Below are positions 54,270 to 56,946 of a DNA stretch of 64,000 nt, piece after piece. Each line of letters begins with the position of its first letter. The first letter of the stretch is position 1. The notes beneath the pieces are model-generated. The model was given only the letters and a program-made list of their open reading frames with translations, was not told the DNA's origin and searched no databases. The position numbers were made by a program, and so were the translations under genes. The stretch is from Synechococcus sp. NOUM97013 (GTDB lineage: Bacteria; Cyanobacteriota; Cyanobacteriia; PCC-6307; Cyanobiaceae): positions 1,178,001 to 1,242,000 of the forward strand of contig NZ_CP047941.1 of assembly GCF_014279815.1 (NCBI RefSeq), written 5' to 3'.

Positions 54270-54349
54270 TGCAATGGCGTAACACCCCACGGCACCCAGC
54301 CATGACAGGGGTTGAAGCGCTTTAAACTCTCCACAGCATGCCAGCCGTC

Positions 54350-54844
54350 ATGAGCGTTGTAAGGGATCTGATCCTCCAGGCCGATGACGACCTGCGTTAC
54401 CCCAGCAGTGGTGAGCTGCGCTCCATGGTGGAGTACCTCAGCCAGGGATCTGTGCGCCTGTCGGTCGTGAAGATCCTCACCGACAGCGAAAAGAAGATCA
54501 TTGATGAATCGGCCAAGCAGCTGTTCAGCTTGCGTCCGGAATATGTGGCTCCGGGCGGTAACGCTTACGGCCAGAAACAACGGGCCCAGTGCCTGCGGGA
54601 TTACAGCTGGTACCTGCGCTTGGTGACCTACGGCGTTCTCGCTGGAAGCACCGAGATGATTGAACAGATTGGTCTGATCGGTGCCCGTGAGATGTACAAC
54701 AGCCTTGGTGTTCCGATGCCGGGCATGGTGGATGCGATGCGTTGCATGCGTGAAGCAGCGCTGGTCCTCCTCTCTGAAGAGCAGAAATCCATTGCTGCTC
54801 CCTATTTCGACTATCTGATTCAGGGCATGCAGACCAGCACCTGA
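54350..54844 (+). CDS. apcD: Allophycocyanin alpha-B subunit
   Basis: About 164 residues from ATG at 54350 (MSVVRDLILQADDDLRYP); an ATG at 54338 adds four residues. The bilin-binding Cys lies in QCLRDYSWYLRLVTYGVLAG. EYVAPGGNAYGQKQRA and IGLIGAREMYNSLGVP are typical of ApcD, the terminal emitter of the phycobilisome core that passes energy to photosystem I or II. Length fits. A terminator follows 25 bases later. Confidence 0.92.
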   Translation: MSVVRDLILQADDDLRYPSSGELRSMVEYLSQGSVRLSVVKILTDSEKKIIDESAKQLFSLRPEYVAPGGNAYGQKQRAQCLRDYSWYLRLVTYGVLAGSTEMIEQIGLIGAREMYNSLGVPMPGMVDAMRCMREAALVLLSEEQKSIAAPYFDYLIQGMQTST

Positions 54845-54868
54845 TTGGTTTTTGCCCAAGATTGCACT

Positions 54869-54891
54869 GGCCCTGCTTGAAGGGCCTTTTG
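54869..54891 (+). terminator. Rho-independent terminator of apcD
   Basis: GGCCCT and AGGGCC form a perfect 6-bp stem around a GCTTGA loop, followed by TTTTG. It lies 25 bases past the apcD stop. Confidence 0.85.
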
Positions 54892-54912
54892 TTGGCTTAC
54901 ATGTCTCACCTA

Positions 54913-54937
54913 AGACGCAATATCAGTCTCAACTTGC
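54913..54937 (+). repeat. Direct repeat, left copy, with internal hairpin
   Basis: AGACGCAATAT-CA-GTCTCA-ACTTGC. The AGACGCAA at 54913-54920 can also pair with TTGCGTCT at 54934-54941, giving an 8-bp hairpin. The right copy is at 55817. Confidence 0.7.
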
Positions 54938-54995
54938 GTCTCTTATTGGTTGCGTTGCTCCTGTTTGGATAGATTCAGTGATCTACTGTCTTGCG

Positions 54996-55014
54996 AGGGC
55001 GGGCAGGCCCTTTT
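54996..55014 (+). terminator. Weak terminator-like hairpin
   Basis: AGGGC and GCCCT form a 5-bp stem around GGGCAG, followed by TTTCTGTTCTTTC. If real, it could end a short RNA starting after the apcD terminator. The stem is short, so this is uncertain. Confidence 0.35.
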
Positions 55015-55598
55015 CTGTTCTTTCGCTGTTGTCGACGCATCGCGGCATCTGTGGTCACGCAGCAGAGGCCGCCGACTTAAGTCGCAAGCGTCTTACTTGG
55101 TAAGCGTGATGGGTCTCTTGCAGTGTCTCGCGTGAGAACATTGGTTTTTGCGCAGGCGGTTCAAAGTGCTGCTGTGACGCTGTTGGTCAAAGTTGGAAGA
55201 CTTTGGCTTCTCATTGATGTTGTTGTCGTTCGCCTCTGCCGAAAGTCGCATTGAGCGATGTCCAGAGTTTGCGTCACTGTGTCAACAGCAGAGACGCAAA
55301 CAAAAGAAGTGCCTCGAAGACTGGCTTTTGATCAGGTCCTAACCTTCTTGGACATGGACAGAGCACGTCTGGACACTGCTTTGACGCCTCTGCTTGTAGT
55401 TCTGTCGACTGCGCATCGATCCATGGAGCGATCGCGAAACACCATATTCAGGTTTTTCCAGCCTTGTCAGTGTCAGGACTCAGTGCTCGCTCCATGCAAA
55501 TGAAACCATTGAAAAATTCGATTTTGATGCAAACAGGACAAGTGCTTCGTTGGGCCAGTCTCTGCAAGTGATCATTCAGAAGTCCTGGATCAGCCGTC

Positions 55599-55615
55599 AA
55601 TGAGACTGTCTCATT
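55599..55615. repeat. 17-bp perfect palindrome around GAGAC
   Basis: AATGAGAC-T-GTCTCATT is a perfect inverted repeat of 8 bases around one base. It has the shape of a dimeric DNA-binding-protein site. A further ATGAGAC half-site follows 11 bases later. Confidence 0.75.
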
Positions 55616-55812
55616 ATTCTGCTATGAGACCATTGCTTGGTCTTAGGTCATGTCGCGCTCTGGACGACTGACACGGCTTTTTTCGTGTTTCTTGGGTCTT
55701 TGTTGGTCGTGAGTCGATGCTGGATCGCCAGCTTTTTAAACCCATTCGCTTTGTTGAACGGTGGCGCTCAGTGCGTTGCTTGTGATCAATGCTCAATGTC
55801 TCGTTGGTTATG

Positions 55813-55848
55813 CATGAGACGCAATATGTGTCTCATGTCACGACTTGC
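55813..55848. repeat. Direct repeat, right copy, with an 8-bp inverted pair
   Basis: CATGAGAC (55813-55820) and GTCTCATG (55830-55837) form an 8-bp inverted repeat with a 9-base spacer. The AGACGCAATAT and ACTTGC parts repeat the left copy at 54913. It lies 7 bases from the stop of the RHH/J-domain gene. Confidence 0.7.
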
Positions 55849-55854
55849 CTAGGA

Positions 55855-56946
55855 TTAATTGGATGCTTCTTTTTGTCTGTAAAGCTCCTTCAGCATCTGG
55901 TACGCCTCGTTCAATCGACGCATCGCTTCGGTGGAACCACCTGAGTCAGGATGCACCTCGATTGCTTTGCGTTTGTACGCATCGCGAATGGAGCGAAGCG
56001 TGAGCGATTGACCTGCCTGGGTTGGTAGATCCAGTTGCTTCAAGGCTCCATGCAGGGTCATCGTCGACTCCAGCGTCTCGAATGAGGTCACTTTGCGACT
56101 CCGTTTGAAACGACTCACAAAGCGACGAATGAGCGTTGGGATTCGATCGGGGACGGATCCGCTTGCGAACGGATCTTCCAAGACAGCTGCGGCCACGATC
56201 ACCTGTTCGAATCGTGGCGATGGAACCATCCATTCGGGGCAGTACTGCTGCATGGAGTGATTCACCTGACTCCAAGTGAAGGTTCGTCCTTCGCTGCCAT
56301 CGATATGAGGCCAGATGTCACGGGCCATCCAAAGCATCACCGCTTCCATCACGGTGGCTCCTGGGGCTGAGCCATAGAGATTGATCCAGTGATTCAGGGC
56401 CACCTCAAACCATTGCTGCAGTTCTGATTCGCGGACCACCGGTACAACAGGAATTTCTGTGCTGGCTTGAGGGGGAGTGCTGAGACTCTCGCGAATGGCA
56501 CTGCTGCGCTTGCGCACAAAACCGGGAAGATCAATGCCACCGCTAGCGACCGATGAACGCTTAGGAGGATCATTGAGATTGGGCTCTGACCAGTTGGAAT
56601 CGTTTGCTGTTACGGGGTCAATGGCGCCGTTGGACCCCACCAGCACAATCGCTCGGTCTTCGTCATATTGAGGATGAATGGGTTGTGCTTCTGCAGAACC
56701 AATCGGTGATGCTGCTGTTGTGTTGTCACCAAGGGAAGTGTCCCTGTTCTCCTTCCTCTCGGGCGGTGCCAGATGCTCAGTCTCGGCAGCTGAAAGCACC
56801 TGGTCTTCATCGTCCGGCTGAAAAATCTCTTCGAGAAGGCGGCGTAAGCACTCACCTCTGGATCGAATTTTCCAATCCTTGCGAAGGCAGTCGATCTGAT
56901 CGACAAGCTCTTCCGGCAATTCCAGGCTGATGCGTTTGCCGCTCAT
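55855..56946 (-). CDS. RHH-type DNA-binding / J-domain fusion protein
   Basis: A 363-residue protein with an unusual layout. Residues 1-45 (KRISLELPEELVDQID, then SRGECLRRLLEEIF) fit the ribbon-helix-helix (CopG/MetJ-like) DNA-binding fold. Residues 46-170 are a charged, disordered-looking linker. Residues 170-290 form a helical middle part of unknown type (QQWFEVALNHWINLYGSAPG; EAVMLWMARDIW). Residues 300-360 form a J-domain with the HPD motif (AIEVHPDSGGS), which recruits DnaK. It sits next to the GAGAC repeats; a binding link is only a hypothesis. Confidence 0.8.
   Translation of the reverse strand: MSGKRISLELPEELVDQIDCLRKDWKIRSRGECLRRLLEEIFQPDDEDQVLSAAETEHLAPPERKENRDTSLGDNTTAASPIGSAEAQPIHPQYDEDRAIVLVGSNGAIDPVTANDSNWSEPNLNDPPKRSSVASGGIDLPGFVRKRSSAIRESLSTPPQASTEIPVVPVVRESELQQWFEVALNHWINLYGSAPGATVMEAVMLWMARDIWPHIDGSEGRTFTWSQVNHSMQQYCPEWMVPSPRFEQVIVAAAVLEDPFASGSVPDRIPTLIRRFVSRFKRSRKVTSFETLESTMTLHGALKQLDLPTQAGQSLTLRSIRDAYKRKAIEVHPDSGGSTEAMRRLNEAYQMLKELYRQKEASN

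Follow-up and report, generated by a model that had tools for sequence, protein, structure and literature searches.

A candidate dif-like site with accessory repeat arrays at the replication terminus of picocyanobacteria

What does the 1.0-kb non-coding gap between an apcD-like gene and a ribbon-helix-helix (RHH) protein gene do in Synechococcus sp. NOUM97013? The gap lies in a 64,000-nucleotide stretch of DNA (the window, to which unprefixed positions refer), and the original prediction described in it a cluster of GAGAC/GTCTC sites that could be a multi-site operator, an RNA locus or a degraded mobile unit. The gap and its neighbors contain the following features, with distances measured from the core center at 55284.

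54338-54844, plus strand: left-flanking apcD-like phycobilisome gene, directed toward the gap (Pfam Phycobilisome, 1.8e-58)
54845-55854, unstranded: non-coding terminus region, 1.0 kb, between convergent genes
54903-54942, unstranded: left end of the outer GTCTYA/TRAGAC/GTCTC repeats (at 54903, 54911, 54926 and 54938)
55090-55129, unstranded: outer repeats GTCTTA and GTCTC (at 55090, 55113 and 55125)
55259-55264, plus strand: TGTCCA, -22.5 from the core center
55270-55298, unstranded: core palindromic site TGCGTCACTG-TGTCAACAG-CAGAGACGCA (27-mer at 55271-55297)
55349-55354, plus strand: TGGACA, +67.5, the commonest position in the family
55355-55360, plus strand: TGGACA, +73.5
55370-55375, plus strand: TGGACA, +88.5, the second common position in the family
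55558-55562, unstranded: outer repeat GTCTC
55599-55645, unstranded: outer repeats, comprising the palindrome AATGAGACTGTCTCATT, TGAGAC and GTCTTA
55798-55837, unstranded: right end of the outer repeats, GTCTC and CATGAGAC-N9-GTCTCATG
55855-56946, minus strand: rhhJ, which encodes an N-terminal RHH part and a C-terminal DnaJ-like part (Pfam RHH_1 and DnaJ, both narrowly above the cut-off)

The excess of GAGAC/GTCTC sites is real. The gap (54845-55854) holds 13 sites where 1.55 are expected (Poisson P ~1e-8), given a background of 1.53 per kb. This density comes from 679 sites counted over 444 kb of the 2.55-Mb genome, made up of the 64-kb window and 380 kb from sampled stretches. Thirteen is the maximum per 1 kb in this sample, yet clusters of 9-10 exist. 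The next densest 1-kb segments hold 10 sites, in G000:C1:1140001-1160000 (L333), and 9 sites, in 1720501-1740500 (L338). The predicted palindromes at 55599-55615, 55813-55837 and 54913-54941 are all present, and so is the end repeat AGACGCAATATnnGTCTCA, with copies at 54913-54931 and 55817-55835 that are 89% identical over 19 bases. The 12-bp end repeat was rejected as a genome-wide repeat family, with one exact copy only, and with up to 2 mismatches it gave 68 matches genome-wide versus 45 for the reversed pattern. A search of the genome for other copies of the whole region returned short matches only (best E 0.19). Relatives that share the gene order show the pattern too: 25 same-genus loci contain 76 GTCTCA motifs, versus 11.9 expected, within 350 bp of the core. 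These results support one half of the proposed multi-site operator, a DNA-binding region with multiple sites; the operator half does not hold, and a promoter operator was rejected because the gap lies between convergent genes (apcD-like on the plus strand, RHH-DnaJ on the minus strand) that both point inward.

The original prediction passed over the most conserved part of the region, a palindrome at 55267-55301 that holds just one GAGAC. When the DNA was searched against 31 genomes of the same genus, including its own, 22 matched, nearly all at window positions 55269-55300, a stretch with one GAGAC site only. The core follows the 29-bp pattern TGCGTnnCTG-N9-CAGnnACGCA, in which inverted arms of 10-11 bp (TGCGTAnCTGY) surround a 7-bp spacer. 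The exact 27-base pattern was found in 170 of 300 family genomes, a count that still includes G196, whose match is off-terminus, and G256, whose match looks like chance. These genomes represent 31 of 59 genera, and the pattern is mostly single-copy. It occurs in 127 of the 197 better assemblies and in 23 of the 24 same-genus genomes of the 300-genome sample, and the reversed pattern, used as a control, in 4/300. The core at the terminus of G196 is of the TGCATA type, unlike its exact match elsewhere. Two exact matches were found in four genomes (G003, G289, G167 and G304); the second ones in G003 and G289 lie inside an open frame with no TGTCCA nearby. A stricter pattern gave 72 matches in a collection of named species, 70 of them with cyanobacterial titles. 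The remaining two are a "Bifidobacterium" metagenome-assembled contig with rhhJ and a Propionivibrio sequence (L162). The former (L104, labelled Bifidobacterium breve) carries both site and rhhJ and is probably a picocyanobacterial contaminant.

Diverged cores adjoin rhhJ in Prochlorococcus-like genera that lack the exact pattern (22 loci examined). Several are symmetric, with the same change in both arms (TGAGTA or TGCATA), as in TGAGTAnCTG...CAGnTACTCA and TGCATAACTG...CAGTTATGCA. Four have unlike arms, in some cases with one arm changed and the other unchanged (L301, L304, L307 and L317). All eight genomes of genus g18 contain GTRCTG-N9-CAGTAC in the stretch downstream of rhhJ, which we read as the same core with one base fewer per arm. 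Upstream of it in the alignment is a tandem of the TGTCCTTT(n)nATGTCCA type, 11 bp apart, in 7 of the 8 genomes and a variant of it in the remaining one. No core within 3 mismatches was found in genus g9 (8/8 genomes), G055, G279 or G051. We also observed that in 11 of 126 distinct host loci (L034, L036, L037, L052, L053 and six others) the core palindrome is perfectly extended by 7-16 bp of unrelated sequences; in 110 viral loci the extension never exceeds 6 bp.

Two further layers of motifs surround the core. Within 350 bp of the core, 125 host loci contain 221 TGGACA motifs versus 41 expected, 231 GTCTCA versus 50, and 170 GTCTTA versus 31. In 120 viral loci, TGGACA is enriched over the same distance (224 versus 40 expected), and GTCTCA falls outside the top 14 motifs. 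The inner layer is mirrored, with TGTCCA mainly to the left of the core and TGGACA mainly to the right. Two main peaks, near 67 and 89 bp, with a weaker one between them near 78 bp, indicate ~11-bp phasing, and a further weaker peak near 56 bp has the opposite orientation. These putative arm-type sites thus lie around the core in helical phase. The outer layer, AGTCTYA, is found mostly 100-500 bp from the core in host loci. The GAGAC/GTCTC cluster therefore appears to consist largely of AGTCTYA-type repeats, the outermost of the three layers of the site.

The site is closely linked to the gene that we name rhhJ in the present analysis. The order apcD, gap, rhhJ is kept in all 21 same-genus loci examined, and a rumA-like gene lies on the far side of apcD in 20 of them, the remaining locus being cut by the contig start. 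Across 154 site-bearing host loci, which include some same-species loci from two collections, rhhJ was found in 140, and the site lies beyond its 3′ end in every one of these (140/140), at a median of 420 bp from the last aligned residue. In 11 of the 14 loci where rhhJ was not found, including L162 from Propionivibrio, the site is within 1.5 kb of the end of the stretch. Of the other three, L076 is a mobile-element-like copy, and L116 and L120 keep apcD and rumA on the opposite side. The gene is present in 48 of 53 genomes tested; it is absent from the four g9 genomes tested (G038, G119, G174 and G188) and from G055.

The site lies at or near the replication terminus. The distance between dnaN and the site, taken along the shorter arc in 57 chromosome-sized records or single-contig genomes, has a median of 0.485 of the chromosome and is at least 0.45 in 52 of them; the lowest values are 0.39, in G225 and G160. 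In this genome, as in many others, dnaN is found at coordinate 1 or close to it. All 13 stretches sampled ahead of the site in this genome have positive third-position GC skew; the 8.7 kb beyond the site retain a slight positive value (0.023), and from 1.26 Mb on all 9 stretches are negative. The raw skew agrees except in two near-zero stretches. These signs place the switch in GC skew within ~30 kb of the site.

A conserved tyrosine recombinase is encoded ~0.48 Mb from the site, at G000:C1:1717773-1718972. Its orthologues, of ~390-430 aa, were found at 51-76% identity in 47 of the 48 genomes searched, a subset of the 53 tested with PF00589, and the sole miss was G055. PF00589 matched at E 0.01 in all 53 genomes and exceeded the cut-off in 49. 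All 29 aligned orthologues (30 fetched) share the residues R254, K281, R346, H369 and Y378. In the structure model (mean pLDDT 79, pTM 0.47), an N-terminal domain of alpha-beta-beta-beta-alpha topology is followed by a core-binding region and then by a catalytic domain. The best Foldseek match was archaeal XerA (E 2.9e-5), followed by integron integrase and lambda Int (E 1e-3). The VIA scores of four structures are tied within ~1 unit: Brujita integrase (Z 10.3, rmsd 13.1, 240 aligned), XerA (10.1, 12.5, 218), XerH (9.0, 8.2, 237) and lambda Int (8.7, 8.1, 229).

The protein scores far below the cut-off of the NCBIfam Xer models (XerS 17.0/267 bits, XerA 14.4/220, XerD 13.3/329.6), and its extra N-terminal domain (pLDDT 92), beyond the core-binding and catalytic domains, sets it apart from the Xer subgroup. 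This domain alone had no Foldseek match at E 0.001, and its best VIA hit was the ribosome-hibernation factor HPF (Z 4.7, 65 aligned, rmsd 2.9-3.1). No integrase N-terminal or arm-binding domain was among the fold matches listed for it, and we do not claim it as an integrase arm-binding domain. The only protein of the phage collection that is similar to the host recombinase at an E threshold of 0.001 is the integrase of phage PSS2 (NC_013021, 89367-89984; over 43% of the length), and the match consists of three records of this one phage. From the near-universal presence of the recombinase and the shape of the site, we infer that it acts at the core. Genus g9 keeps the recombinase in 4/4 genomes tested, yet has neither rhhJ (4/4) nor the core (8/8), and G055 lacks core, rhhJ and recombinase altogether.

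Copies of the core are also found in viruses. At least 120 viral stretches in IMG/VR carry it, versus 3 for the reversed-pattern control. One of these, in L201, lies within T-runs on a contig with an integrase; it is probably a chance match, yet it is counted. Within 3.5 kb of the core, 56 of the 120 stretches examined encode a protein of the L214 family, which is matched best by the large terminase subunits of cyanopodoviruses; a ThyX-like protein (named by eye) is encoded in 20. The published genome of the uncultured cyanopodovirus MedDCM-OCT-S28-C3 (AP013539) has a perfect core in a 944-bp unannotated stretch after terL (L349:4741-5684). Together with 12 named cyanophage isolates it was examined for the core, which was found in S28-C3 alone. 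The core is absent from S-RIP2, P-SSP7, KBS-S-2A, a 37.5-kb part of PSS2, S-CBP1 and MED4-184, and from the terL regions of S-SBP1, S45-C4, NATL1A-7, DSL-LC07, S-RIP1 and KBS-P-1A. With one carrier among these 13, the site belongs to some phages, mostly uncultured. A result that placed 77 of the 120 viral sites inside long open reading frames came from a crude picker and was set aside.

Most carriers appear to lack an integrase. Among 22 long viral records that bear the site, one has a PF00589 match (1/21 contigs and 0/1 for S28-C3); the 21 contigs are those of at least 30 kb among the 80 of 120 with a given length, and most may be fragments. An integrase is present, and the core absent, in P-SSP7 and S-CBP1; S-RIP2 lacks both. 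Integrases were found in 0/12 site-bearing contigs of at least 41 kb versus 13/24 published T7-like cyanophages, a difference whose Fisher P of 0.002 carries no weight because the phage groups compared differ. T7-like cyanophages with an integrase are reported to integrate at tRNA-Leu (PMC8776855). None of rumA, apcD, rhhJ or the next gene was found in the 120 viral stretches examined, and only 7 spacers are common to the 72 host and 82 viral ones; integration at the host site is thus unsupported. The second core copies in G167 (L398:3306) and G304 (L399:4422) each lie beside a DUF3854 protein gene in a mobile-element-like stretch. A phage capsid gene is found on the same contig in G167, and an HTH protein accompanies the copy in G304.

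We believe, with a probability of a little under 60%, that the gap is a replication-terminus site that works like dif, with one recombinase and accessory arrays. A dimer of the recombinase would occupy both 10-11 bp arms of each site; it would pair two sister sites and exchange strands in the 7-bp spacer, which would turn chromosome dimers into monomers. TGTCCA may be bound by the extra N-terminal domain of the recombinase or by another host protein. The outer repeats may be recognized by the RHH-DnaJ protein, which would confine the reaction to the terminus or to division. The accessory sites would provide direction and timing. By carrying the core and TGTCCA, phages may exploit the host recombinase, either to resolve multimers or to integrate transiently. 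Multimers of plasmids with cer sites are resolved by a host enzyme, and a similar resolution of phage multimers would fit better than integration. Several observations weigh against this dif-like reading. Genus g9 keeps the recombinase without a recognizable core, so that action of the recombinase at the core is not proven; the 7-16 bp palindrome extensions (11/126) go beyond what a recombinase needs; some diverged cores have unequal arms, and G279 and G051 have no core within 3 mismatches; the recombinase gene is ~0.48 Mb away, and its Xer model scores are far below the cut-off. Against the phage part stand the mostly different viral and host spacers, and no phage was seen integrated at the site.

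A terminus-organizing complex that acts without recombination is, in our view, an unlikely alternative, although one to be taken seriously. The RHH-DnaJ protein would bind the core and the repeats, as in MatP/matS, and anchor or condense the terminus. This would agree with the RHH domain of rhhJ, with repeats arrayed over ~1 kb, with the linkage of gene and site (140/140 loci where rhhJ was found), and with the joint loss of core and rhhJ from g9 and G055, while g9 retains the recombinase. However, the arm (10-11 bp), 7-bp spacer and arm design exceeds what an RHH site needs, and the 120 viral stretches have core and TGTCCA with few outer repeats and no rhhJ gene. A conserved structured RNA or a bidirectional terminator, with the palindrome forming a transcript hairpin, is very doubtful. 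The core does fold well (z -2.7), the palindrome is extended in 11/126 host loci, and the arms often change together. On the other hand, no Rfam match was found in the region at E up to 1, a terminator-like consensus match already lies just 3′ of apcD (54869-54886), and the complementarity of the arms is incomplete in the window's genus. The position at the terminus would be left unexplained, as would the mirrored, ~11-bp-phased TGTCCA/TGGACA, which point to a DNA-bound protein, and the RNA locus of the original prediction is thus not favored.

The location near the skew switch and opposite dnaN would also suit a replication-fork barrier or other termination signal. We give this very little credence: known fork barriers are polar and multiple, whereas the site is usually single and near-symmetric, and a phage would have no obvious gain from it. 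Equally improbable is a phage-derived attachment site or degraded mobile unit that sits at the terminus by happenstance. The same core does occur on viral contigs and in two mobile-element-like stretches, and the recombinase is integrase-like. Nevertheless, the core is kept at a fixed position in the gene order (140/154 host loci), no element was seen there, and the recombinase is conserved at 51-76% identity, which leaves the predicted mobile unit unsupported.

The dif-like reading bears on a gap in what has been reported for cyanobacteria. One study failed to predict dif in any of the five cyanobacteria it tried; it describes XerCD as present but divergent there, and suggests that this divergence and that of dif, together with weak GC skew and an origin that had not been identified, may account for the failure (PMC3025954). 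Elsewhere, xerC is listed as a rare gene in cyanobacteria (PMC5101192), and one review gives Anabaena as the only cyanobacterium with an FtsK homologue identified so far (PMC7766704). Xer proteins are described as simple recombinases without an arm-binding domain, and one cyanobacterial group is assigned a separate "Cyan" subgroup instead of Xer (PMC8138268). No dif or terminus site of Synechococcus or Prochlorococcus is named in the titles and abstract openings of the literature searched, which covered papers outside subscription. The site looks like a candidate for the long-missing place where picocyanobacteria of ocean and lake untangle joined chromosomes. With a 29-bp site, a recombinase candidate and a partner gene linked to the site, dimer resolution in the most abundant photosynthetic cells becomes directly testable, and the reading offers a possible reason why some integrase-less cyanophages keep a core-bearing non-coding stretch beside the terminase gene. 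We tentatively propose, as something quite possible, that picocyanobacteria, and hence Prochlorococcus and marine Synechococcus, resolve dimers by a lambda-integrase-like three-domain recombinase at a terminus site armed like attP, with a dedicated RHH-DnaJ partner, and that integrase-less cyanophages carry a copy of the site to use this host machine.

The locus can be compared with four kinds of known system. MatP/matS organizes the terminus with an RHH-domain protein and repeated sites, and the present locus likewise has an RHH-domain protein gene and repeated sites at the terminus. Unlike matS, these repeats lie beside the gene within ~1 kb, the protein has a DnaJ-like domain, and its binding is only proposed. 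The locus shares with lambda Int/attP, a system of complex arm-binding integrases, a core with outer repeated sites in helical phase, and the modeled recombinase similarly appears to have N-terminal, core-binding and catalytic parts; in contrast to attP, the site is chromosomal, conserved in the family and free of a mobile element, and the N-terminal domain matched no arm-binding structure. Like the mobile elements that exploit Xer (IMEX, such as CTXphi and LME-1), the integrase-less carriers found here, mostly as fragments, bear the dif-like chromosomal site of the host. Unlike IMEX, they are tailed cyanophages, many with cyanopodovirus-type terminases, and no copy was seen integrated at the host site.

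The single-recombinase Xer/dif systems (XerL/dif of Legionellales, XerH/difH, XerS/difSL and XerA/dif) are described as all having palindromic terminus sites of ~28-31 bp, like the present core, and mobile elements carry copies of their sites as they do here (PMC9765430, PMC5357621). Also common to both are a short spacer between inverted arms and one tyrosine recombinase, a candidate in our case. The locus agrees with these systems in its terminus position, in an armed site of 28-31 bp that is usually found once per chromosome, and in a conserved recombinase with intact catalytic residues. It differs in its arm, TGCGTAnCTGY, in the extra phased TGTCCA copies and in the AGTCTYA arrays, and recombination at the site is a proposal; its recombinase differs from Xer in its length of ~390-430 aa, its extra N-terminal domain and the lack of an NCBIfam Xer assignment. 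Because the recombinase fails the Xer models, we do not file the locus as a member of Xer/dif. The dif site of Legionella is reported to be a 29-bp intergenic terminus site with perfect 10-bp arms that needs the single recombinase XerL, and it was recognized through the dif mimic of a mobile element (PMC9765430). Legionella dif/XerL is the closest precedent for the present site, which differs from it by its extra layers and its RHH-DnaJ partner.
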